From contig NZ_VAUP01000038.1 of the NCBI RefSeq assembly GCF_005871085.1, positions 62,001 to 126,000 on the forward strand: a stretch of DNA of 64,000 nucleotides, in the 5' to 3' direction. Of the stretch, positions 52,282 through 64,000 are shown one piece after another; the first letter of the stretch is position 1, and each line of letters opens with the position of its first letter. The translations under genes were made by a program, and so were the position numbers. This stretch comes from Xanthobacter autotrophicus. Its GTDB lineage: Bacteria; Pseudomonadota; Alphaproteobacteria; Rhizobiales; Xanthobacteraceae. The notes under the pieces are model-generated. The model was not told where the DNA came from and did not search any database. It saw nothing but the letters and a program-made list of their open reading frames with translations.

Positions 52282-54960
52282 TCAGGCCGGTACCGTCGTC
52301 TCCGCGAGGAGGCGGCGGATCTCGGGCAGGCACGAGCCGCAGTTCGTGCCGGCCTTGAGCTTTTCCCCCACCATGGCCGCATCGTGCGCGCCGGCGCGGA
52401 TGGCGCCTGTGATGGCGTCGCGTGGCACGCTGAAGCAGGCGCACACCAGCGGCCCGCACGCGGCCGCAGCCCCCGCCCGCCGGCCCGCCAGCAGGGTGCG
52501 CCGGTCAGCGGCGGAGACGGTGTCTTCCGCAAGCAGGCCCTTCAGCGCATCCCACGCCACGCGCCGGCCCGCCGTGCCCACGAACACCGCGAAATCCAGC
52601 CGCCCGTCCCCATCGAAGGCGGCAGCCCGGTAGAGGCCGGACGGTGCGTCCACCAGCTCCGCCACGTCGGCAGGACCTTCCGCCTTCACCCACTGCGCCC
52701 AGTCGTCCGGCCCGAGGCTGCCGGCCATGCGCCAGCCAAAACCGCCCTCCAGCGCCGCACGCGCCCACCACAGGCCTTGCGGCATCTGAAGCGGACGCCG
52801 CGACAGCACGAAGCCCTCGAACGGCGCGGCATAAGGCGCGAGGGTGGCCGGGGTCGCCTTGGAATCGGGCTGGCCGGAGAGGGGATCGGTCACCGCATGC
52901 ACCAGCGGGCCGACCCGCCCGTGGGACGAGGTGGCGGAGCTCCAGTGGATGGGCGCGAACAGGGTGCCGCGCTTTTGCCCGGCATCGATCCTCACCTCCA
53001 GCACCGCCGCGCCATGGGCGCTCGCCACCCGCGCCAACGCGCCGTCCGCAAGGCTGAGGGGCGCCGCATCGTCCGGATGCACGGCCACGAACGGCGCCAG
53101 GATGTGCGAGCCCAACCGGGGGGAGAGGCCGGTGCGGGTCATGGTGTGCCACTGGTCGCGGATGCGGCCGGTGTTGAGCAGGAAGGGGAAGGCGTCGCTC
53201 CCCCGCGCCGCTTCCACTGGGGCAGGCGCCATGAAGCGGGCGCGCCGGTCGGCGGTGAAATAGCAGCCGTCCGCGAACAGCCGCTGGGTGCCTTCGGGCC
53301 GTCCGTGCGGGGCCGGCCACTGTACCGGGTTGAAATCCTGATAGGCCGCATCCGACAGGTCGGCGAAGGCGGAGATGTCGAAATCGCGGGTGCCGGCATT
53401 CTCGAAGCCGGAGAGCGCCGCGTGCTCGCGGAAGATGTCCGCCGGCCCGCGCCAGGCGAAGGCCGGGCCGAAGCCGAGGCGCGCCGCCACCTGCGCCAGC
53501 GCCCACCAATTGGGCTTCACCGCGCCGGGCGGGGCGAGGAAGGGCCGCTGGCGGGAAATGCGCCGCTCGGAATTGGTGACGGTGCCGTCCTTCTCGCCCC
53601 AGGCGGCGGCGGGGAGCATCACGTGGGGGGCGCATTGGGCGGTGTCGTTGACGGCCACGTTCTCCGACAGCACGAACAGGTCGAGGCCCTTCAATGCCGC
53701 GCGCACGCCGTCCGCCTCGGGCAGGCTGACGGCCGGGTTGGTGCCCATGATCCACAGCGCCTTGATCTCGCCCCGGCCGATGGCGGCGAACAGGTCCACC
53801 GCCTTGTGGCCCTCGCGGGTGGCCATATGGGGCGCATCCCAGAAGCGGCGCACACGGTCCACCTCCTCCGGCGAAAAGCCCATGTGGGCCGCCAGCTGGT
53901 TGGCGAGCCCGCCCACCTCGCGCCCGCCCATGGCATTGGGCTGGCCGGTCAGCGAGAACGGCCCCATGCCCTCGCGGCCCATGCGGCCGGTGGCGAAATG
54001 GCAGTTGAGGATGGCATTGACCTTGTCGGTCCCCGCCATCGACTGGTTCACCCCCTGCGAATAGCAGGTCACGGTGCGCGCGGTGTCCGCGAACAGGGCA
54101 AAGAAGCGCGCTACGTCTTCCACGTCGAGGCCACAGGCGCGGGCGGTGGCCTCGGCGTCGGGGGTCACGGCGCGGGCGTGGGCGAGCGCGGTGTCGAAGC
54201 CGGTGGTGTGGTCGCGCACATAGGTCGCGTCGAAGGCCGGGCTTTGCGCCAGATGGGCGAGCAGCCCGGAAAACAGCAGGGCGTCGGTGCCGTGGGCGAG
54301 GGGCAAATGCAGGTCGGCTTCCGCCGCCGTCTCGGTGCGGCGGGGATCGATGACGATGAATTTCGTGCCCCGCGCCTTGCGTGCCGCCTCCATGCGGCGG
54401 AACAGCACCGGATGGCACCAGGCGGTGTTGGAGCCCACCAGCACGATGAGGTCCGCCGCCTCCAGGTCCTCATAGGACCCCGGCACCGTGTCCGAGCCGA
54501 AGCCGCGCTTGTGCCCGGCCACGGAGGACGACATGCACAGGCGCGAATTGGTATCCACGTGGGCGGTGCCGAGGAAGCCCTTGGCCAGCTTGTTGGCGGC
54601 GTAATAATCCTCGGTCAGCAACTGGCCGGAGAGATAGAAGGCGATGGCCCCCGGACCGTGGGCGTCGCGCACGCTCTTCAGCCCGTCGGCGATGCGGTCG
54701 AGGGCGGTGTCCCACGTCGCGCCGGTGAGCGCTCCGTCTGCCCCGCGCACCAGGGGATGGAGCAGGCGGGTGTCGAGCCCCACCGTCTCCCCCAGCGCCG
54801 CGCCCTTGGAGCACAGCCGGCCGAGATTGGCGGGGTGGGCGGCATCGCCCTCCACCAGGGCGCCGCCGAGGCCGTCCGGCGTCGCCTTCACCCCGCAGCC
54901 GACGCCGCAATAGGGGCAGGTGGTCTTCACCGAGGGGGGCGAGGCGAGAGGCGCGTTCAT
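52282..54960 (-). CDS. nasA: Assimilatory nitrate reductase catalytic subunit NasA/NasC
   Basis: 892-residue cytosolic molybdopterin enzyme reducing nitrate to nitrite. N-terminal [4Fe-4S] cysteines 15, 18, 22 and 50 (CPYCGVGC ... LCSKG), MGD domain with TNSRLCMSSSVAGHKRGFGS holding the Mo-ligand Cys, GVNQSMAGTDKVNAILN and WIMGTNPAVSLPEA. A C-terminal BFD-like [2Fe-2S] domain is present (VCACFSVPRDAI ... GTNCGSCLPEIRRLL), as in NasA types fed by a flavoprotein. Last gene of the nitrate operon, 32 bases after the flavoprotein gene. The in-frame extension to 55242 is not used. Confidence 0.95.
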   Translation of the reverse strand: MNAPLASPPSVKTTCPYCGVGCGVKATPDGLGGALVEGDAAHPANLGRLCSKGAALGETVGLDTRLLHPLVRGADGALTGATWDTALDRIADGLKSVRDAHGPGAIAFYLSGQLLTEDYYAANKLAKGFLGTAHVDTNSRLCMSSSVAGHKRGFGSDTVPGSYEDLEAADLIVLVGSNTAWCHPVLFRRMEAARKARGTKFIVIDPRRTETAAEADLHLPLAHGTDALLFSGLLAHLAQSPAFDATYVRDHTTGFDTALAHARAVTPDAEATARACGLDVEDVARFFALFADTARTVTCYSQGVNQSMAGTDKVNAILNCHFATGRMGREGMGPFSLTGQPNAMGGREVGGLANQLAAHMGFSPEEVDRVRRFWDAPHMATREGHKAVDLFAAIGRGEIKALWIMGTNPAVSLPEADGVRAALKGLDLFVLSENVAVNDTAQCAPHVMLPAAAWGEKDGTVTNSERRISRQRPFLAPPGAVKPNWWALAQVAARLGFGPAFAWRGPADIFREHAALSGFENAGTRDFDISAFADLSDAAYQDFNPVQWPAPHGRPEGTQRLFADGCYFTADRRARFMAPAPVEAARGSDAFPFLLNTGRIRDQWHTMTRTGLSPRLGSHILAPFVAVHPDDAAPLSLADGALARVASAHGAAVLEVRIDAGQKRGTLFAPIHWSSATSSHGRVGPLVHAVTDPLSGQPDSKATPATLAPYAAPFEGFVLSRRPLQMPQGLWWARAALEGGFGWRMAGSLGPDDWAQWVKAEGPADVAELVDAPSGLYRAAAFDGDGRLDFAVFVGTAGRRVAWDALKGLLAEDTVSAADRRTLLAGRRAGAAAACGPLVCACFSVPRDAITGAIRAGAHDAAMVGEKLKAGTNCGSCLPEIRRLLAETTVPA

Positions 54961-54992
54961 GGGGGGCCGATCCTGCCTGAGGCTGTCCGGGG

Positions 54993-56627
54993 TCAGTATA
55001 CGTCGGCCTGGTAGCGGCCGGCGGTCTTCAGGTCCGCCACGAAGCGGGCCGCCGCCTCCGCCGAGAGGCCGCCATGCTCCGCCGCGACGGCGACCATGGC
55101 GGCTTCCACGTCCTTGGCCATGCGCTTGGCATCGCCGCAGATGTAGAAGTGCGCGCCGGCCGCAAGCCACGCCCACAATTCGGGCCCTGCCGCGCGGATC
55201 TTGTCCTGCACATAGACCTTGCCGGCGCCGTCCCGGGACCATGCGGTGTCGAGCCGGGTGAGGGTGCCGCAGGCCTGAAGGCCGCTCAGCTCGTCCTCGT
55301 AGAAAAAGTCCGTGTCGCGCTTCTGGTGGCCGAAGAACAGCCAGTTGCGTCCCGGCGCCTTGGTGGCGAGCCGCTCATGCAGGAACGAGCGGAACGGGGC
55401 GATGCCGGTGCCCGGCCCCACCATGATCACATCCTTGGAGAGGTCGGCCGGCAAGGCGAAGCCGTGGGCCTTCTGGATATAGGCCTTCATGCGCGTGCCC
55501 GCCGCGATGCGGCCGCCGAGGAAGGTGGAGGCAACGCCGAGCCGGGTGCGCCCGGTCTGCTCGTAGCGCACCGCGTCCACCGTCAGGGTGAGCTTGCCGG
55601 GGGTCGCCGTGGGGCTGGAGGAGATGGAATAAAGCCGGGGCTGAAGCGGCTCCAGGCACTCCACCAGAGCCTCCGGATCGGGACGGATGCCGGGGAATTT
55701 CTCCAGCGCCGCCAGCACGTCGAGGGTGGCCGCATCGCCGTCCGGGTCCTCGCCGGAGGCCAGCGCGCGGGCCTTGGCCTTGCGCTCGCCGCCGGTGATG
55801 TAGGAGATGAGGGTGAACAGCGCGTCGGGGGCCGATTTCAGGCACACCTCGCGCGAGAGCACCTCGCCGAGCGTCTTGTCGGCGATGGGGAAATCCGGGG
55901 GGGCGTGGAGCGCTGAGAGCACCGCCGCCACCAGGTCCGGATCATTCACCGGGAACACGCCGAAGCTGTCGCCCGCCACATAGTCGATGCCCGAGCCGGC
56001 AAGGTCGAACTCAATGTGCCAGGTCTCCTTCTCGGAGCCGTCCTTGTTGAGGCGGGTGCGGCCGAGGAAGGTCACCTCGCCGGGATTTTCGCGGGTGCCG
56101 AGGGCCGCCGGGGCGTGGGGCTCGTGGGCGTAGGAGACGGCGGCGGAGGGCGCGGGGGCGGCGGCCGGCTTGGCGGCCGGGGTGGTGGTTTCCTCCGCCA
56201 GTTGCTTCAGCATGCGCAGGGTCTCCTTGCCGCCGGGGGCGCAGAGGTTGAGCTTGCTTTCGGCGCCATCGGCCAGCGCCTTGGCGTAGGTCTCGCAGAC
56301 ATAGCCGCACTGGCCGCAATCCTGCTGGGCCATGGCCGCCATCATGCGCCGGGGCAGGGCCTTGCCTTCCGCCAGCGCCATGCGCTCGGCCAGCGGCATG
56401 GCGGGGTCGTGCCAGGGTGCGCCGTCATCTTCTGCTTCCGCAGCCGGGGCGGGCATGTCGGGCATCAGCGCCGCCGCGTCGCCCGCCGAGAGGGCGGTGG
56501 GAGCGCTGACCTGATCGGCGGAGAGGATGGCGGCGAAGAAGCCGTTCAGCCACGCCCGCTGCTCGCCGGTGAAGGGCGCGCTGTCGGGCAGGACGGGCAC
56601 AACGGGAATGCGGGTCTGGAGGCTCAT
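54993..56627 (-). CDS. FeS/FAD/NADPH oxidoreductase (CysJ-like, lacking the flavodoxin domain)
   Basis: 544 residues. No FMN/flavodoxin domain. Residues about 95-135 form a small Fe-S domain with Cys104, 107, 111 and 129 (CGQCGYVC ... LCAPGG), similar to PF04060 but with one residue fewer between cysteines. From about 180 it is CysJ/P450-reductase-like: FAD motif RLYSISSS, NADPH motifs GPGTGIAPFRSFLHER, FFGHQKRDTDFFYEDEL and YICGDAKRM, with terminal ADVY. Annotated elsewhere as sulfite reductase alpha, but placed between nirA and nasA, it more likely passes NADPH electrons to nitrate or nitrite reduction. Confidence 0.85.
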   Translation of the reverse strand: MSLQTRIPVVPVLPDSAPFTGEQRAWLNGFFAAILSADQVSAPTALSAGDAAALMPDMPAPAAEAEDDGAPWHDPAMPLAERMALAEGKALPRRMMAAMAQQDCGQCGYVCETYAKALADGAESKLNLCAPGGKETLRMLKQLAEETTTPAAKPAAAPAPSAAVSYAHEPHAPAALGTRENPGEVTFLGRTRLNKDGSEKETWHIEFDLAGSGIDYVAGDSFGVFPVNDPDLVAAVLSALHAPPDFPIADKTLGEVLSREVCLKSAPDALFTLISYITGGERKAKARALASGEDPDGDAATLDVLAALEKFPGIRPDPEALVECLEPLQPRLYSISSSPTATPGKLTLTVDAVRYEQTGRTRLGVASTFLGGRIAAGTRMKAYIQKAHGFALPADLSKDVIMVGPGTGIAPFRSFLHERLATKAPGRNWLFFGHQKRDTDFFYEDELSGLQACGTLTRLDTAWSRDGAGKVYVQDKIRAAGPELWAWLAAGAHFYICGDAKRMAKDVEAAMVAVAAEHGGLSAEAAARFVADLKTAGRYQADVY

Positions 56628-56714
56628 GGCTGTGGTCTCGGTGTCGGATGGCGCGCCTGCGGCGCGAAGTCTTGCGTCAGGCCGCCGAGCGGCCGCTCGG
56701 ATCAACAAGCGCCC

Positions 56715-58478
56715 TCATGCCGTCGCCTCCGCCAGCGCCTTCAGCGCGTCGGGGTCCATGCGGCGGGTGAAGGGGGCGAAGGCTTCGCCCTCCTCGCGGT
56801 GGGCGAGCCAGCTCTTCAGCAGGCGCTCCACCACCACGGGGGCGTCTTCGGCCTTCACGTCGCGATAGAGTTCGCGGGCGATGGCGGCGTCCGCGCCGAA
56901 GCCGCCGCCGACGAACAGGTGATAGCCGTCCACCGTGTCGCCATCGTCATTGATGGCCACCCGCGCGCCGATGAGGCCGATATCGCCGATATAATGCTGG
57001 GCGCAGCTGTTGTGGCAGCCGGTGACATGGATGTTCACTGGCCCGTCGAGGTCGAGGCGTTCCTCGCAATGGGCGAGGATGGCGCGGGCCGTGCCCTTGG
57101 TGTCGGCGGCGGCGAAGCGGCAGCCCTTCGACCCCGTGCAGGCCACAAGCCCGGCCTGCAGCGGCGTCGCCTGGGTGGACAGCCCCAGCGCGGCGATGGC
57201 GGTGCACGCCTGCGCCACGTCCGCGTCGGCAACGCCCGAGATCAGCAAATTCTGCCAGACGGTGAGGCGGATGTCGCCGTCGCCCAGGCGGGCGGCGATG
57301 TCGGCGAGGCCGTGCATCTGCTCCACGCTCATGCGGCCCACCGGCAGGCCGACGCCGATATAGTTCAGCCCCGGCTGCTTCTGGGGATGGACGCCGAGAT
57401 GGGCGAGGCGGTCGGCCTCGGCGCGGGGCGCTATCGCCTCGCCCGGCAGGCGGGTGAAGGGGCGGCCGAGCTTCTTTTCCACCAGCGCGAGGAAGCCGTC
57501 GAAGCCCATGGCGTCGAGCACGTATTTCAGCCGCGCCTTCTTGCGGTCGGTGCGGTCGCCGGTGTCGATGAAGGCGCGCACGATGGCGGCGGCCACTTCG
57601 CTCGCCTCCAGCGGCCGCACCACGATGCCGGTGTCGCGGGCAAAATCCTTGTGGCCGGTGATGCCGCCCAGCGCGAGCCGCAGCCATATGCCCGGCGCGA
57701 CGCCGAACCCGTCCTTCACCTCCACCGCCTGGAAGCCGATGTCGTTGGTGTCCTCCAGCGCGCCGATGGTGCCGGCGCCGTCAAAGGCCACGTTGAACTT
57801 GCGCGGCAGGCCGTACATGTCGCGATTATTCAGGATGTAGTGGTGCCACTCCTTCGCCAGCGGGCGGGTGTCGATGAGTTCCTGCGTGTCGATGCCGGCG
57901 GTGGGGGTGCCGGTTACGTTGCGGATATTGTCCGCCCCCGCGCCCTTGGCGGTGAGGCCGAGATCCACCAGCTTTTCCAGCACGGCGATGCCGTCGGTGG
58001 CCGGGATCTCGCGGATCTGCAAATTCGCCCGGGTGGTCACGTCGCTGTAGTTGCCGCCGTGGGCGGCCGCGATGTCGGCCACGCCGCGAAACTGCCAGTG
58101 GGTGAGGATGCCGTTGGGAATCCGCATGCGGCACATGAAGCTGTCCTGCGCCGGTGCCACATGAAACAGGCCGTGGAACTTCCAGCGGAACACGTCCGGC
58201 CCCTTGGGGAACACGCCGTCCTGCGCGGCCGCCTTCATGCGGGGGTAAGAATCAAGGCCGAATTCCTCGCGCTTGCCCTTCTCCTCCGGCGAGAGCTTCT
58301 TGCCCTGTGCCTCGAAGCGGGCCATGGCCTTGAGCCCCGCCGCATCCGGGCCGGTGGGCTCAGCGGCAACCGCCGGGGCACCCGCAGGCGCGGCGCCGCG
58401 GGTGATCTGCACGGCCTTGGCGCCGGAGACGAAGCCTTCCAGATAGCGCTTCTGGTCGATGGAAAAATCGCCGCCCAT
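56715..58478 (-). CDS. nirA: Ferredoxin-type nitrite reductase (NirA)
   Basis: 587-residue sirohaem/[4Fe-4S] enzyme reducing nitrite to ammonium with six electrons. The cofactor ligands are visible as ACTGSKGCRFAAADTKG (C-x5-C) and HNSCAQHYIGDIGLIG (C-x3-C) in the C-terminal half; ISRQ-type N-terminal ferredoxin-NiR repeats (RIPNGILTHWQFRGVADIA; TTRANLQIREIPATDG) precede them. It is the single-subunit NirA kind rather than NADH-dependent NirBD. 11 bases after the FAD reductase gene, so strongly coupled to it. Confidence 0.94.
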   Translation of the reverse strand: MGGDFSIDQKRYLEGFVSGAKAVQITRGAAPAGAPAVAAEPTGPDAAGLKAMARFEAQGKKLSPEEKGKREEFGLDSYPRMKAAAQDGVFPKGPDVFRWKFHGLFHVAPAQDSFMCRMRIPNGILTHWQFRGVADIAAAHGGNYSDVTTRANLQIREIPATDGIAVLEKLVDLGLTAKGAGADNIRNVTGTPTAGIDTQELIDTRPLAKEWHHYILNNRDMYGLPRKFNVAFDGAGTIGALEDTNDIGFQAVEVKDGFGVAPGIWLRLALGGITGHKDFARDTGIVVRPLEASEVAAAIVRAFIDTGDRTDRKKARLKYVLDAMGFDGFLALVEKKLGRPFTRLPGEAIAPRAEADRLAHLGVHPQKQPGLNYIGVGLPVGRMSVEQMHGLADIAARLGDGDIRLTVWQNLLISGVADADVAQACTAIAALGLSTQATPLQAGLVACTGSKGCRFAAADTKGTARAILAHCEERLDLDGPVNIHVTGCHNSCAQHYIGDIGLIGARVAINDDGDTVDGYHLFVGGGFGADAAIARELYRDVKAEDAPVVVERLLKSWLAHREEGEAFAPFTRRMDPDALKALAEATA

Positions 58479-58489
58479 GGTGTCTCTCC

Positions 58490-59710
58490 TCAGGCCGCTG
58501 CGGCGATGGCGTCCCGCCCGAAGGCGAGATCGGCGCGCATGGCGGTGATGGGGGTGCGTTGGGTGATGAGGTCGAGATAGAACAGGCCGTCCGCCGTATC
58601 GCCGAACAGCACGGCGCCGACGAGGAGCCCGTCCTTCACGATGAGCCGGCGATAAACGCCAAGCCCCCGGTCGGTGAGCACGATGTCTTCCGTGCCCTCG
58701 CCGCCGGTGACGTCTCCCGCCGAGAAGACGGGGACGCCCGAAACCTTCAGATTGGTGGCCACCACCGAGCCGTCGTAGCGCGCCTCTTCCCCCGCCAGCC
58801 GGCGGGCGAGCACGCGGGCCTGCTCATAGGCCGGTGCCACGAGGCCATAGGCGATGCCGCGATGCTCGGCGCATTCGCCGAGGGCGCAAATGGCGGGATC
58901 GGAGGTGGCAAGGGTATCGTCCACCACGATGCCGCGCTTCACCTCCAGCCCCGCCGCGCGGGCAAGGTCCGCATTGGGGATAACGCCGCAGGCCACCACC
59001 ACCAGGTCGGCCTCCACCACCCGCCCGTCCTTGAGCCTCAGGCCGGTGACGCGGCCGTGCGCGTCCCCCTCGATGGCGTCGCTGGCGGCCTGAAGCAGCA
59101 CCTCGACGCCCTTGGCTTCCACCGCCCGCCTGAGGAATCCGGCGGCGGCGGGATCGAGCTGGCGCTCCATCAGCCGGTCCATGAGATGGACGAGGGAAGT
59201 CTTCACCCCCGCACCGGCAAGGCCCACGGCGGCTTCCAGGCCCAAGAGCCCGCCGCCGATCACCACCGCCCGCGTGCCGGGCACGGCGGCGGCGGCAAGC
59301 AGCGCCTCCACATCCTTCAGGTCGCGGAAGGTGTGCACGCCATCGAGGTCCATCCCCGGCAACGGCAGGCGGATGGGATGCGAGCCGGTGGCGAGCACGA
59401 GGCGCGCATAGGGCAGGCGCCGCCCGTCCGCCAGCACCACTTCGCGCTGGGCGCGGTCGATGGCGGCGGCGGGGGTGCCGTATTGCAGGGTCACGCCGCG
59501 ATCGCGCCACCAGGAGGCGGGCTTCATCTGCGCGTCAGCGGCGGTCATGTGGCCGGCGAGCACCTCGGAGAGCAACACCCGGTTATAGGCGAGGTGCGGC
59601 TCCGCCCCGATCACCGCGACCGCATGGCGGCCGAGCGCCCGCTGGCTCAGCTCCTCGCAGAGCTTTGCCGCCGCCATGCCGTTGCCGATGATGAGGAGGG
59701 GCTCGCTCAT
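58490..59710 (-). CDS. NAD(P)/FAD-dependent oxidoreductase (NirB N-domain/Flp-like)
   Basis: 406 residues resembling the N-terminal NADH/FAD half of NirB and rubredoxin reductases. FAD motif LLIIGNGMAAAKLCEELSQR, HLAYNRVLLSEVLAG, NAD motif AVVIGGGLLGLEAAVGLAGA, and FSAGDVTGGEGTED for FAD. No [2Fe-2S] or sirohaem domains follow. In Bradyrhizobium a homologue (Flp) beside a globin and NasC carries electrons for nitrate assimilation; the same role is inferred. Neighbours: globin upstream, nirA downstream. Confidence 0.88.
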   Translation of the reverse strand: MSEPLLIIGNGMAAAKLCEELSQRALGRHAVAVIGAEPHLAYNRVLLSEVLAGHMTAADAQMKPASWWRDRGVTLQYGTPAAAIDRAQREVVLADGRRLPYARLVLATGSHPIRLPLPGMDLDGVHTFRDLKDVEALLAAAAVPGTRAVVIGGGLLGLEAAVGLAGAGVKTSLVHLMDRLMERQLDPAAAGFLRRAVEAKGVEVLLQAASDAIEGDAHGRVTGLRLKDGRVVEADLVVVACGVIPNADLARAAGLEVKRGIVVDDTLATSDPAICALGECAEHRGIAYGLVAPAYEQARVLARRLAGEEARYDGSVVATNLKVSGVPVFSAGDVTGGEGTEDIVLTDRGLGVYRRLIVKDGLLVGAVLFGDTADGLFYLDLITQRTPITAMRADLAFGRDAIAAAA

Positions 59711-59733
59711 GTGCGTGTCCTTTGGCTTTGTCC

Positions 59734-60156
59734 TCAGGCCACCGGCTCGGGGGCTTCGGCGGCGGCGATCATGACGGAGGAGAGGAGGCCGTAGGCGTCC
59801 GCCCATGCCGCCTTCACCTCGGGGGTGAAATCGGCGCCGAGGCCCTGTTCCAGCGTCCACAGCAGGGCGGCGCCCACGGGGGCGTAATGCTCGGTCTTGA
59901 CGCCGTAGCCCACATGCTTGCGGGCGAGGTTCTGCGCGGCGGGCACGATGCGCGGCAGGTCCTTCAGGCCGGCCACCACCACGCCGAGGGTGGCCATCAG
60001 CTTCTGGCCCTGGGTGGTCATGTCGCCCTTGAACAGGGGCTTCACCTCGGGCGCGATCTCGAACAGGCGGCCGTAGAACAGACCCGCCGCCGTATCGGCG
60101 ATGGGCGCCACCTTGGCGAAACTGGCCTGGACCAGATCAATCTGGGTCGGTGTCAT
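59734..60156 (-). CDS. Single-domain bacterial haemoglobin
   Basis: 140 residues of the Vitreoscilla-type globin family without a reductase domain. Tyr B10 region GLFYGRLFEIAPEVKPLF, and proximal His81 in NLARKHVGYGV followed by HYAPVGAALLWTLEQ. Such globins in nitrate operons (Bjgb in Bradyrhizobium) scavenge nitric oxide formed during nitrite handling, with electrons from the adjacent FAD reductase; that role is inferred here. GGAG ribosome site before ATG 60156. Confidence 0.92.
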   Translation of the reverse strand: MTPTQIDLVQASFAKVAPIADTAAGLFYGRLFEIAPEVKPLFKGDMTTQGQKLMATLGVVVAGLKDLPRIVPAAQNLARKHVGYGVKTEHYAPVGAALLWTLEQGLGADFTPEVKAAWADAYGLLSSVMIAAAEAPEPVA

Positions 60157-60223
60157 GGCAATCTCCGTGGCTTTGAAAAAGGGCGAGGGGAGCGGGCGCA
60201 CCGGCCCGCTCTGAAAAGAGGCC

Positions 60224-61018
60224 TCAGGCCGCTTCCACGTAGCGGTGGCGCTCGTGGAGGAATTTCAGCACCGCCTCGCGGGCCTTCAGGTAGGTGGCGT
60301 TGGTGACCAGCTCCAGCCGCTTGCGCGGACGCGGCAGGTTCACTTCCAGCACCTCGCCGATGCGGGCGGAGGGGCCGTTGGTCATCATCACGATGCGGTC
60401 GGAGAGCAGCACCGCCTCGTCCACGTCGTGGGTGATCATGAGGATGGTGTTGCCGAGGCTCGCGTGGATCTGCATGACGCTGTCCTGCAGATGGGCGCGG
60501 GTGAGGGCATCCAGCGCGCCGAACGGCTCGTCCAGCAGCAGCACCTTGGGCTCCATGGCCAGCGCCCGGGCGATGCCCACGCGCTGCTTCATGCCGCCGG
60601 AGACTTCCGAGGGGCGCTTGTCCCTGGCATGGCCCATCTGCACCAGATCGAGGTTGTGGATGGTCCAGTCGTGCCGCTCGGCGCGGGAGCGGGTGCCGGA
60701 GAACACCTTGTCCACCGCGAGGCGCACATTGTCGTAGACGGTGAGCCAGGGCAGCAGGGAATGGTTCTGGAACACCACCGCGCGGTCGGGGCCGGGAGCG
60801 TTCACTTCCTTGCCGTCGAGGATGACACCGCCGGTGGTCACCGGGGTGAGGCCGGCGACGATGTTGAGCAAGGTGGACTTGCCGCAGCCGGAATGGCCGA
60901 TGATGGAGATGTATTCGCCCTTGGCGATGTCGAGGGAAACGTCGCGCAGCACTTCCGTGGTGGCGGCGCCGCGGGAAAAGCTCTTTCCGATCTGGCTCAG
61001 CTCGAGATAGGCGGGCAT
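60224..61018 (-). CDS. nrtD: Nitrate ABC transporter ATP-binding protein NrtD
   Basis: 264-residue ABC ATPase: Walker A GHSGCGKST, Q-loop VFQNHSLLPWLTVYDN, signature VSGGMKQRVGIARAL, Walker B LLLDEPFGALDALT and switch His TMITHD-like LMITHDVDEA. Belongs to the nitrate/sulfonate/taurine (SsuB/TauB/NrtD) group; nitrate is inferred from the operon. No NrtC-type fused solute domain exists, so a single ATPase probably serves the complex. Confidence 0.92.
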   Translation of the reverse strand: MPAYLELSQIGKSFSRGAATTEVLRDVSLDIAKGEYISIIGHSGCGKSTLLNIVAGLTPVTTGGVILDGKEVNAPGPDRAVVFQNHSLLPWLTVYDNVRLAVDKVFSGTRSRAERHDWTIHNLDLVQMGHARDKRPSEVSGGMKQRVGIARALAMEPKVLLLDEPFGALDALTRAHLQDSVMQIHASLGNTILMITHDVDEAVLLSDRIVMMTNGPSARIGEVLEVNLPRPRKRLELVTNATYLKAREAVLKFLHERHRYVEAA

Positions 61019-61054
61019 GGGATGCTCCTCGAAAGTGCGGTCAGGACGCAGGGC

Positions 61055-61951
61055 TCAGGACGCCTGGGTGCCACGGGTGACGAAGGAGCCGACGCCGGCC
61101 ACGAGGCGGTCGAGCACGAAGCCGACCACGCCGATGTAGACGAGGGCCACGATGATGTCGGGCAGGCGGGAGGAGTTCCACGCATCCCAGATGAAGAAGC
61201 CGATGCCGACGCCGCCGGTGAGCATCTCAGCAGCAACGATGGCGAGCCACGACAGGCCGATGCCGATGCGCAGGCCGGTGAAGATGTAGGGCGCCGCCGA
61301 GGGCAGCATGATCTTCCAGAAGAATTCGATGGGGTTCAGCCGCAGCACCAGCGCCACGTTGCGGTAATCCTGCGGGATATTTCGGATGCCCACCGCCGTA
61401 TTGATGATCACCGGCCAGATGGCGGTGATGAAGATCACGAAGATGGCGGAGGGGTTCGAGTCGCGGAACGCGGCCAGCGCGATGGGCAGCCAGGCCAGCG
61501 GCGGCACCGTGCGCAGCACCTGGAAGATAGGGTCGAGGCCGCGCATGGCCCATACCGACTGGCCGATCACCGCGCCGACCAGGATGCCCACCACCGCCGC
61601 CAGGCCGAAGCCCACCGCCACCCGCTGGAGCGAGACCAAAACGCGCCAGCCGAGGCCGATATCCTGCGGGCCGGCGACGAAGAAGGGATCGAGGATCAGA
61701 TCCTTGGAGTCAGCCCAGATGCGGCTCGGTGGCGGCAGGGTGGCGCCGGGGCCGGAGCACAAAAGCTCCCACAGCAGGCCCAGAAGCAGCACCATCACCA
61801 GCGGCGGGAGGACGCTGACGGCGACGCTTTTGGCATAGCCCGGCCAGCGCGAGGGGCGCGCCGGGGTGGTGGGGGCGGCAAGGCGGACCACGGCGGCGCT
61901 CCCGGAGCGCCGGGCCTCTTTGGGCGGCTCTTTCAATGCGGTGACGGACAT
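61055..61951 (-). CDS. nrtB: Nitrate ABC transporter permease NrtB
   Basis: 298 residues, about six membrane helices after a 45-residue N-terminus. The BPD permease loop is EFFWKIMLPSAAPYIFTGLR (EAA motif), with GLDPIFQVLRTVPPLAWLPI and AEMLTGGVGIGFFIWDAWNS typical of NrtB/NasE. Forms the membrane channel with NrtA and NrtD. Separated from nrtA by 236 bases of palindromic repeats, unlike the tight spacing elsewhere in the operon. Confidence 0.92.
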   Translation of the reverse strand: MSVTALKEPPKEARRSGSAAVVRLAAPTTPARPSRWPGYAKSVAVSVLPPLVMVLLLGLLWELLCSGPGATLPPPSRIWADSKDLILDPFFVAGPQDIGLGWRVLVSLQRVAVGFGLAAVVGILVGAVIGQSVWAMRGLDPIFQVLRTVPPLAWLPIALAAFRDSNPSAIFVIFITAIWPVIINTAVGIRNIPQDYRNVALVLRLNPIEFFWKIMLPSAAPYIFTGLRIGIGLSWLAIVAAEMLTGGVGIGFFIWDAWNSSRLPDIIVALVYIGVVGFVLDRLVAGVGSFVTRGTQAS

Positions 61952-61997
61952 GGGGCAGGGCTCCGGTTCGGGGCGTGTCATATGTTCGGGGCGGACA

Positions 61998-62174
61998 CCC
62001 TCTCCCGCTTGCGGGGGAGGGCAGGGAGGGGGCTGCGGCGCATCCGCCCTCACCGGTGCTTGGGGATGAAGAGGGCCTGCCCCCTCCCCAACCCTCTCCC
62101 GCACGAAGCCGGATGTTTCCGGCTTCGGCCTTTCGGTGCCGAACTCGGCAACAGCCGAGTTCGGGCGGGAGAGG
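61998..62174. repeat. Composite palindromic repeat between nrtA and nrtB
   Basis: Two inverted copies of one family. Copy 1 (61998-62021): arms CCCTCTCCCGC and GCGGGGGAGGG around TT. Copy 2: CCCTCTCCCGC at 62092-62102 pairs with GCGGGAGAGGG at 62164-62174 and encloses two perfect hairpins, GAAGCCGGA/TCCGGCTTC and CGAACTCGGC/GCCGAGTTCG. TGCGGGGGAGGG-type and CCCTCTCCCGCA-type ends make the unit a large imperfect palindrome. As RNA it would fold strongly between nrtA and nrtB. Confidence 0.85.
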
Positions 62175-62187
62175 GGGCGCGCCGTGC

Positions 62188-63540
62188 TCAGGCCTCGACG
62201 CGCTTGATGCCGAGGCTTTTCAGGTAGGCCTGCGGATCGGCGGGATCGAAGACCTTGCCGTCGAAGAAGGTTTCCTTGCCGCGCGAGGTGCCGGCGGGAA
62301 TATCCGCGGCGGCGACGCCGAGTTCCTTGGCGGCCTCGCGCCAGATGTCCTCGCGGTTCACCTTGTTGACGAGGGCGTTGATGTCGGTGGAGGGCTCGAA
62401 CTTGCCCCAGCGGATGTCCTCGGTGATGAACCAGGCGTCGTGGCTCTTGAAGGGATAGGACGCATGGTCCTTCCAGAACTTCATGTACTGGTCGGTGCCC
62501 TTCTCAACCCGGCCGTTGCCGTAATTGATGTCGCCCTTCAGGCGGCCGATGATGTCGGCGACGGGCACATTGAACCATTGGCGCTTGCCGACGATCTCGG
62601 CCAGCTCCTGCTTGTTTTCCATCTTGTCGCACCACTGCTGGGCTTCCATCACCGCCTTGAGGATGGCCCGCGTGGTGTTGGGGTTCTTCTCCACGAAGTC
62701 GGCGCGCATGCCGAGCGCCTTCTCGGGGTGGTTCTTCCAGATCTCGCCGGTGGTGCAGGCGGTGAAGCCGATGCCCTGGTTCACCAGCTGCTCGTTCCAC
62801 GGCTCGCCCACGCAGAAGGCATCCATGGTGCCCACCTTCATGTTGGCCACCATCTGCGGCGGCGGCACCACGATGGTGGAGACGTCCTTGTCCGGATCGA
62901 TGCCGGCGCTGGCCAGCCAGTAGCGGATCCACAGATCGTGGGTGCCACCGGGGAAGGTCATGGCGACTTTGACTTCCTTGCCGTCGGCCCTCTTCTTGGC
63001 GAAGGCGGCCTTCAGCGCGCTGGCGTCGGTGGTGACCTTGAGGTCCTTGTATTCGTTGGAAACCGAGACGGCCTGGGCGTCGAGGTTGAGGCGCGCCAGG
63101 ATGACCATGGGGGTGGGCACGTTGTTCTGTGTCACCTTGCCGGCGGAGATCAGGTAGGGCATGGGCGAAAGGATGTGCGCGCCGTCGATGCCGTTTTTCT
63201 CGCCGCCGAGCACGAGGTTGTCGCGGGTGGCGCCCCAGGAGGCCTGCTTGTTGACTTCCACGTCCGGCACGCCGTGCTTGGCGAAGAAGCCCTTCTCCTT
63301 GGCGATGACCAGCGGCGAGGCGTCGATGAGGGCGATATAGCCCAGGATCGCTTTGGTGGTTTCCGGCGCGGCTGCATAGGCGGACGGCACGCCGCCGGGG
63401 AAGGCCATGCGCACGGCGTCGAACAGCGCGGCGGTGCCCAGCGTGGCCGCCGTGCCCTTCAGCAGCGAGCGGCGGGACATGCCTTCGGCGGCGGGAGACT
63501 GGGTCGTCGCAGCAGACTTGGTCTTCGAAGCGTCGCTCAT
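62188..63540 (-). CDS. nrtA: Nitrate ABC transporter substrate-binding protein NrtA
   Basis: 450-residue periplasmic nitrate/nitrite-binding protein. A twin-arginine signal is visible: SRRSLLKG near residue 22, with cleavage likely after PSAYA. The mature part shows NrtA/SsuA features: LGYIALIDASPLVIAKEKGF, GKHGVPDVEVNKQASWGATR, LSPMPYLISAG, FPGGTHDLWIRYWLASAG and MVANMKVGTMDAFCVGEPWN. First gene of the operon. RBS AGAGGAA directly before ATG. Export folded by Tat is usual for this family. Confidence 0.93.
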   Translation of the reverse strand: MSDASKTKSAATTQSPAAEGMSRRSLLKGTAATLGTAALFDAVRMAFPGGVPSAYAAAPETTKAILGYIALIDASPLVIAKEKGFFAKHGVPDVEVNKQASWGATRDNLVLGGEKNGIDGAHILSPMPYLISAGKVTQNNVPTPMVILARLNLDAQAVSVSNEYKDLKVTTDASALKAAFAKKRADGKEVKVAMTFPGGTHDLWIRYWLASAGIDPDKDVSTIVVPPPQMVANMKVGTMDAFCVGEPWNEQLVNQGIGFTACTTGEIWKNHPEKALGMRADFVEKNPNTTRAILKAVMEAQQWCDKMENKQELAEIVGKRQWFNVPVADIIGRLKGDINYGNGRVEKGTDQYMKFWKDHASYPFKSHDAWFITEDIRWGKFEPSTDINALVNKVNREDIWREAAKELGVAAADIPAGTSRGKETFFDGKVFDPADPQAYLKSLGIKRVEA

Positions 63541-63585
63541 CTTGGTTCCTCTGGATCGGCGGACGGCGCAGAGGGGACCCGAAAC

Positions 63586-63641
63586 AAAAAAAGCCGCAGG
63601 ACATCACGACCGGCCCAGAGGCCATCGGTGTCAGCGGCTTT
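63586..63641 (-). terminator. Leader terminator (attenuator) of the nitrate operon
   Basis: On the minus strand AAAGCCGC (63641-63634) pairs with GCGGCTTT (63597-63590), enclosing a second paired region around GGCC-TCTG-GGCC, and runs into seven Ts (63592-63586). It ends 45 bases before the nrtA start codon, so it would stop transcription of the whole operon unless antiterminated. It starts seven bases after the second ANTAR-type hairpin. Confidence 0.85.
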
Positions 63642-63648
63642 GCTGCGG

Positions 63649-63699
63649 GTCCCGTCATTGGGACGATTTTATGGGGGGCGCGATCCTCGTTGACCGCGC
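63649..63699 (-). ncRNA. ANTAR-target two-hairpin leader (NasT/NasR-type antitermination element)
   Basis: Hairpin P1 (63699-63678): stem GCGCGGTC/GATCGCGC with one G-U pair and hexaloop AACGAG. Hairpin P2 (63664-63649): stem GTCCC/GGGAC and hexaloop AATGAC. Both loops have A at position 1 and G at position 4, the recognition rule for ANTAR-domain proteins. A 13-base linker separates them. P1 would begin about four bases from the predicted transcription start. Followed by an intrinsic terminator and nrtA. No ANTAR gene is in the window. Confidence 0.87.
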
Positions 63700-63713
63700 T
63701 TGGGGATTACCAA

Positions 63714-63729
63714 TGCAAACGGCGGGCCA
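63714..63729 (-). promoter_or_regulatory. Sigma-54 (RpoN) promoter of the nitrate operon
   Basis: Minus strand TGGCCCG-CCGT-TTGCA: the -24 GG and -12 GC are exactly 10 bases apart and match TGGCACG-N4-TTGCW at every key position. Predicted start of transcription near 63703. Indicates NtrC-type nitrogen control. Confidence 0.85.
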
Positions 63730-64000
63730 AGAGGCGGGGAGGGGTTATGTGTTTGAAATTACACTATTTATGACATGGTGAAAATTCAGGCATCAGCAAT
63801 TCCTGCCCTGTGACTGCGCAGCGGTGCGATGCACTTGCATTCAAATTGTGCGCTGCGGTGGGTGCGAAGCGGGCAGCGTCGAAACGGTTTGTAGCGGTCT
63901 TTAAGTGTTCCAGGACCGTCATGGCCGGGCCTGACGGCGGAGTGACACGGCCAAAGGTCCTGCCTGTGCGGCTAGCTCCCGCCCCCAAGGAACGCCCGCG
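63730..64000. other. Upstream control region, no supported gene
   Basis: A 74-codon minus-strand frame at 63764-63988 has no ribosome site or familiar sequence. At 63815-63867, 85-150 bases above the sigma-54 promoter, GTGC/GCAC half-sites cluster (for example GTGCGATGCAC at 63824-63834 and TGCGCTGCGGTGGGTGC). These resemble NtrC enhancer half-sites without a perfect TGCACC-N5-GGTGCA match. Confidence 0.4.

Follow-up and report, generated by a model that had tools for sequence, protein, structure and literature searches.

The nrt/nas operon of Xanthobacter autotrophicus is preceded by a leader of about 118 bases, from the predicted transcription start to the end of a T run, that is very probably controlled by antitermination through the ANTAR protein NasT and three hexaloop hairpins, named here P1, P2 and P3. 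This joint model concerns the window, i.e. the whole stretch of 64,000 nucleotides that was analysed, which corresponds to contig C38:62001-126000 of its genome. The third hairpin shares bases with the 5' strand of the intrinsic terminator and is likely the switch of the system, P2 being the middle hairpin (Table 1). One loop would thus serve both as a protein recognition site and as a terminator strand, which yields a testable account of how nitrate induces the operon in this group of bacteria.

Table 1. Features of the nitrate leader and of the neighbouring genes. Coordinates are those of the window unless preceded by C38.
Feature	Coordinates	Strand	Description and basis
nasT (ANTAR)	C38:127102-127737	same as leader	just outside the window; PF03861 match
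nasS (sensor)	C38:125972-127105; 3' end in window 63972..64000	minus	about 30% identity to NrtA, gene place
Sigma-54 (-24/-12) promoter	63714..63729	minus	TGGCCCG-N4-TTGCA; sequence, conservation, rpoN in genome
P1	63678..63699	minus	GCGCGGTC-AACGAG-GATCGCGC, read 63699-63678; 8-bp stem, A1/G4 hexaloop; proposed accessory NasT site
P2	63649..63664	minus	GTCCC-AATGAC-GGGAC, read 63664-63649; 5-bp stem, A1/G4 hexaloop; proposed recruiting hairpin adjoining P3
P3	63632..63645	minus	CAGC-AAAGCC-GCTG; third A1/G4 hexaloop; proposed antiterminator
Intrinsic terminator	63586..63641	minus	5' arm 63641-63634, 3' arm 63597-63590, seven Ts 63592-63586; folds
nrtA-like nitrate ABC transporter binding protein	62188..63540	minus	first gene after leader, ATG 63540
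Rest of likely operon	52282..62104	minus	ORFs and NCBIfam

The promoter is composed, on the minus strand, of TGGCCCG (63729-63723), CCGT as the N4 spacer and TTGCA (63718-63714). Its GG (63728-63727) and GC (63716-63715) are separated by exactly 10 bases, as is expected of a sigma-54 promoter and as was proposed in an earlier reading made from the sequence only. Transcription is predicted from the promoter position to start near 63703. Both rpoN and ntrC are present in the genome with scores above their cut-offs. The window leader was compared with those of 79 nrtA loci, nearly all labelled Rhizobiales or Hyphomicrobiales, or as genera of these orders, in public genome records. These loci are the best 80 of 545 among the matches listed, minus L056, of which the contig supplies just 58 bases ahead of the match. 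A promoter was picked in each of the resulting 80 leaders by demanding at least 8 of the 11 consensus bases. In this sample of the best 80 of 545, all 11 bases were matched in 39 leaders, 10 in 34 and 9 in 7. A match of at least 10 of 11 was found in 73/80 leaders, against 0.3% of Markov shuffles. The -12 element, TTGC in the window, is TTGA or TTGT in many relatives (L005-L008, L010, L012, L015-L018, L020, L022 and others), in which the rest of the promoter fits. Sites resembling those of NtrC were also sought 5' of the promoter. Their mean score (8.6 of 11) was barely above that of shuffles (7.9 of 11) and they were dropped as too weak for a claim.

The leader downstream of this promoter has the features of an ANTAR target. 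Three of its hairpins carry a 6-base loop with A1 and G4, the last of which (P3, not P2) overlaps the intrinsic terminator, and the single ANTAR protein found in the genome is encoded adjacently. P1 and P2 had been correctly recognized and located from the sequence alone, including the start of P1 four bases past the predicted 5' end (63699 versus 63703). The terminator, a stem with seven Ts ahead of nrtA, was likewise confirmed. The sequence-only reading did not contain P3, which starts three bases after P2. The 5' arm of the terminator, AAAGCCGC, is formed by the P3 loop together with the two bases that follow it in the P3 3' arm; it pairs with GCGGCTTT, whose GCGGC leads into the seven Ts. 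Since P3 shares these bases with the terminator, it offers a way for protein binding to prevent termination that the earlier reading lacked. Folded as a whole, the leader reaches -71.8 kcal/mol (z -4.35), a value as low as none of 200 shuffles attained. Folding gave -51.1 kcal/mol with the terminator and -40.1 kcal/mol with P3 forced. With the terminator favoured by 11 kcal/mol and therefore the default fold, P3 would need the help of a bound protein. An additional pairing was noticed between GGGACCCG (63646-63653, the 3' arm of P2 and the linker) and CGGGTCCC (63574-63581), just past the T run. It replaces P2 in the full fold of the window leader, and the pairing of CGGGTCCC with the 3' side of P2 is present in this leader and, judged by eye, in some relatives. 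No functional role is claimed for it.

The candidate regulator is encoded next to its presumed target. A single ANTAR domain was found in the 5.0-Mb genome (C38:127126-127284; PF03861, 69.1 bits for a cut-off of 27.3). It belongs to nasT, which together with nasS lies directly upstream of the leader and in the same direction, so that nasT (receiver-ANTAR) and nasS (NrtA-like) adjoin the nas/nrt genes as in NasS-NasT systems. The receiver-domain matches of NasT are below their cut-offs, and NasS is named from its identity to NrtA, of about 30%, and from the position of its gene. An ANTAR protein encoded elsewhere had been postulated, together with a genome search for nasT and nasS. This search found both genes and, as they run straight into the leader just past the window edge, the postulated remote location was wrong.

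Downstream of nrtA, the likely operon comprises a permease-like ORF, an NrtC/D-type ATPase, a single-domain globin, a NirB-type FAD reductase, NirA, a CysJ-like flavoprotein and a NasC-like nitrate reductase. The ATPase, NirA and the flavoprotein score above their NCBIfam cut-offs and the globin, the FAD reductase and NasC below them, while the permease ORF is named by place alone. The name nrtA relies on gene place and on the NrtC/D-type ATPase, the only models matching the protein being general ABC binding-protein models, below cut-off. The globin gene (59734-60201) lies within the nitrate operon like bjgb in the narK operon of Bradyrhizobium, for which excerpts of the published accounts describe a role in nitric oxide detoxification (PMC5424462, PMC4724949, PMC6759348, PMC3795266).

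From this organization, we infer NasT binding, its response to nitrate, its order of loading and the role of NtrC as activator. When nitrogen is short, transcription of the nrt/nas operon would start at the sigma-54 promoter, probably activated by NtrC. Without nitrate, NasS would hold NasT and the strong terminator would form. With nitrate, NasT would be freed and would load on an upstream hexaloop (P2, helped by P1). The loaded NasT would then stabilise P3, the loop and 3' arm of which would tie up the 5' strand of the terminator. The terminator being blocked, the polymerase would continue into nrtA. The general scheme of initiation by sigma-54 and elongation through an ANTAR protein had been put forward in the sequence-only reading and stands as an inference in view of rpoN, ntrC, the conserved promoter and hexaloops, and the published design of related leaders; the remote regulator does not, nor, probably, does the use of P1 and P2 as the switch.

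The conservation of P3 was assessed in the 80 leaders with annotation routines, the first of which covered 78 of them (without L010 and L014). When loops of any letters overlapping the terminator 5' arm were considered, a 6-base loop was found in 74/78 leaders and the next commonest size, 8 bases, in 18/78. With at least four Watson-Crick pairs demanded, the same overlap test gave 32 loops of 6 bases and at most 4 of any other size. P3 carries A1 and G4 in 79/80 leaders, the exception being L038 with G1, and the second routine was also free of loop letters. This count was 77/80 before P3 of L062 and L075 was re-picked by GACACCGACGTC. Loop positions 2, 3 and 5 are variable. The 35 distinct P3 sequences have only standard pairs at pairs 1-3, A-U and G-C being exchanged at pairs 2 and 3, and 19 of them have a standard pair 4. 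G4 of P3 lies within the terminator arm in 79/80 leaders, only arms starting inside the loop being allowed. Little covariation is seen in the terminator helix itself. In P2 and P3, both sides changed in 15 cells, compared to 4.5 in shuffles, and 95.1% of the cells were paired; the number of covarying pairs (4 compared to 2.6) is within the shuffle range. Alignment A2 leaves out L004-L022, L024, L029, L038, L043, L053, L058, L059, L082 and identical rows, and the automatic picks were wrong for some Rhizobiaceae T runs and some terminators (e.g. L016-L018, L027). In the Ancylobacter leaders L011, L013 and L014, P2 and P3 are kept but the terminator stem is not followed by any clear T run; termination may be weak there or of another kind.

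The hairpin that accompanies P3 is far less constant. Upstream of P3, 65/80 leaders have an A1/G4 hexaloop whose stem counts 5 bp or more, for 1.2 expected; like the promoter matches, this exceeds chance. Upstream hairpins were then counted with A1 or G1, plus G4, about four pairs and one mismatch tolerated. By this count, a hexaloop is located within 16 nt of P3 in 21/80 leaders (14 near only, 7 also distant) and only at a distance in 55/80, and none was found in four (L012, L015, L038, L081). The P2 and P3 loops are 10-13 nt apart in 20 leaders, i.e. 19 loci and the window, and 16 nt apart in L029. A consensus of 50 distinct Rhizobiaceae-type sequences, folded without manual input, recovers P1 with its hexaloop, followed by a middle hairpin and then P3. 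The stem of this middle hairpin covaries, and its loop has no conserved ANTAR hexaloop. Judging from these folds and counts, the partner hexaloop is the first hairpin in Rhizobiaceae, the second in Bradyrhizobium-like genomes and both in the window, whose P1, P2 and P3 are all intact. Because the terminator-overlapping hexaloop is constant and its partner varies, P3 is the likely switch.

Closer relatives were collected with the model R1, which gave matches in 67/119 genomes of the window's GTDB family at E of at most 0.05. The 30 best loci were read. Some belong to species already represented in the set of 80 leaders, and the 30 are biased in favour of P2, as the leaders used to build R1 had this hairpin. 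P2 was found in 29/30 loci and has both A1 and G4 in each of them, and P3 has A1 in 30/30 (G4 was demanded by the script). The distance between the two loops is 11-14 nt in 29/30 loci for an examined range of 9-16. P1 combines A1 and G4 with an unbroken stem of 4 bp or more in just 4/30 loci; in the others it has G1 or a mismatched stem, or is a plain hairpin. The P1 loop also has G1 in two leaders of the window's genus. As P2 and P3 are kept and P1 is variable, P2 and P3 look like the constant core in this family and P1 appears accessory. In the genome itself, R1 gave five matches at E of at most 5 without revealing a convincing second target with the same layout, although two-hairpin targets could escape it. 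The second match (C16:592054-592141, 26.9 bits) was rejected as lying inside a 499-aa open frame in the inferred locus layout (1500 bases each side), and the three weakest have E values from 0.33 to 3.2.

These counts bear on the pairing first proposed, in which NasT reads P1 and P2 as a twin pair and P3 would be a by-product of the terminator sequence. It accounts for P1 and P2 both being canonical in the window genome and for their 13-nt linker, which is near the range of 5-12 nt of eut leaders. P2, however, makes no contact with the terminator, which P3 does, and P3 is far better conserved than P1, down to the exchanges within its stem. The scarcity of canonical P1 in the family and the absence of a conserved hexaloop from the middle hairpin of the Rhizobiaceae type also argue against a fixed P1/P2 pair. 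P1 and P2 are probably not the switch, and we consider this reading of the leader improbable.

Even less likely is that the hairpin and T run merely end the upstream nasTS operon without regulated read-through. The hairpin does lie on the same strand as nasS, about 330-390 bases past it, but it is preceded by the sigma-54 promoter and the hexaloops. Furthermore, no nasT match was found in 16/80 loci, and the 15 of them with 6 kb of upstream sequence all have the promoter, the terminator and a hexaloop at the place of P3 (with G1 in L038). The leader being kept in 15/15 loci without a nasT match, it belongs to nrtA and not to nasTS. Attenuation by a leader peptide is very improbable: an open frame does begin at the ATG of the P2 loop (63658), but this ATG belongs to the loop AATGAC, and relatives whose loop reads AACGAC, AACGAT or ACCGAC lack it and keep A1 and G4 instead.

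Antitermination by NasT at P3 may also extend to a catalogued RNA family. The sole Rfam match of the leader is RF03032, the narK RNA (33.9 bits, E 1.1e-4). The window leader resembles this family without being filed as a member, as the gathering score of 43.2 bits is not reached, nor is it in any of the 61 genomes examined from the window's family. The first 15 or so positions of the RF03032 model read as a -24/-12 promoter. The model contains one hairpin, which is an A1/G4 hexaloop, and a further hexaloop can form in the tail that it leaves unmodelled. At E of at most 0.001, 18/299 Pseudomonadota genomes (the window's own included) had matches, 13 over the cut-off, in 8 genera. An ANTAR protein is present in 18/18 of these genomes compared to 111/281 of the others (Fisher p 1.3e-7, relatedness not corrected). 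From distances entered by hand, 24 of the 29 matches are within 2.2 kb of an ANTAR domain, two are at 5.3 and 7.8 kb and three are on other contigs. When the 28 loci other than the window's own were read, a terminator-overlapping hexaloop was identified in 26 (A1 and G4 in 24/26), L176 and L178 being the two in which P3 was not found. Of the 26, 21 also have an upstream hexaloop, for which A1 and G4 were demanded, at 14-20 nt in 19/21. We therefore regard the narK RNA as very probably a target of an ANTAR protein (NasT), the sigma-54 promoter forming part of the motif; compared to it, the window leader carries an extra middle hexaloop. In nine loci (L186, L180, L184, L181, L182, L172, L176, L177, L179), the match precedes the ANTAR domain by about 1.7 kb on the same strand. 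These nine matches possibly lead the nasST operon itself, in which case NasT would antiterminate its own synthesis. The terms 'narK RNA', 'narK motif' and 'RF03032' have no mention in the open-licence literature searched, the original narK RNA paper being outside this scope. The narK RNA would gain a candidate regulator, and part of its conserved 'RNA' is suggested to be promoter DNA. Overall, we favour, with moderate confidence, a scheme in which the nrtA leaders of Hyphomicrobiales have a fixed terminator-overlapping NasT hexaloop and a recruiting hexaloop that has shifted between the first and second hairpins, a three-hexaloop relay exists in the window and in part of its kin, and the narK RNA is a sigma-54 promoter followed by an ANTAR dual hexaloop.

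The control of nitrate assimilation by an ANTAR protein is known from several bacteria. In Klebsiella, nasF expression is under Ntr control and the NasR protein antiterminates in the leader through its ANTAR domain and an A1/G4 loop. NasR fuses the sensor and the ANTAR domain, whereas NasS and NasT are separate in the window. The sigma-54/NasT nitrate leader, NasT binding, hairpin mutations and the joint control by NtrC and NasT are already published. In the excerpts of these accounts, the design is described for Paracoccus nasA and Bradyrhizobium narK and nirA, Bradyrhizobium nosR is a further case of NasS-NasT control, NasT binds the nasA leader RNA and, in Paracoccus, growth on nitrate is lost when the first hairpin is missing (PMC5424462, PMC4724949, PMC6759348, PMC3795266). 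Paracoccus has the same layout as the window, with nasTS directly upstream, a leader of hairpins separating nasS from the first structural gene, and NtrC and NasT control. For Bradyrhizobium, the same excerpts report a requirement of narK-lacZ for NasT in aerobic assimilation and a drop of nirA-lacZ to about half when NasT is missing; in a nasT mutant under denitrifying conditions, the narK-bjgb-flp genes, for which NasT hairpins are predicted, rose instead of falling (PMC5424462, PMC4724949, PMC6759348, PMC3795266). This rise counts against the NasT antitermination model. The accounts of both organisms, in the text available, speak of two hairpins (HI, HII), of 'a series of' hairpins or of a NasT-interaction hairpin, and not of a third hexaloop sharing the terminator. 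More generally, such a hexaloop has no mention in the text of the open-licence literature matches listed. As far as searched, three points are new: the third hexaloop with its shared terminator strand, the change of recruiting hairpin from one lineage to another, and the assignment of the narK RNA.

The closest mechanistic parallel is the dual hairpin of EutV and other ANTAR proteins. In the excerpts consulted, it also has A1/G4 hexaloops and a second hairpin that overlaps the terminator, and recruitment and antitermination hairpins have been proposed (PMC3369931, PMC8934654). According to the same excerpts, natural eutP linkers are of 5-12 nt, linkers of 3 or 14 nt drastically cut induction and a 20-nt linker extension abolished eut antitermination in vitro (PMC3369931, PMC8934654). 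The window leader differs from this system by its three hexaloops and by its linkers as drawn, of 3 nt between P2 and P3 (12 loop to loop) and 13 nt between P1 and P2 (26 loop to loop), neither of which falls within 5-12 nt. This rule is that of EutV and was not treated as defining NasT targets; NasT may have its own hairpin spacing. A leader with three hexaloops, together with relatives having a first-only or second-only recruiter, bears on the question of whether an ANTAR dimer holds two hairpins at once or passes from a recruiting to an antiterminating step.
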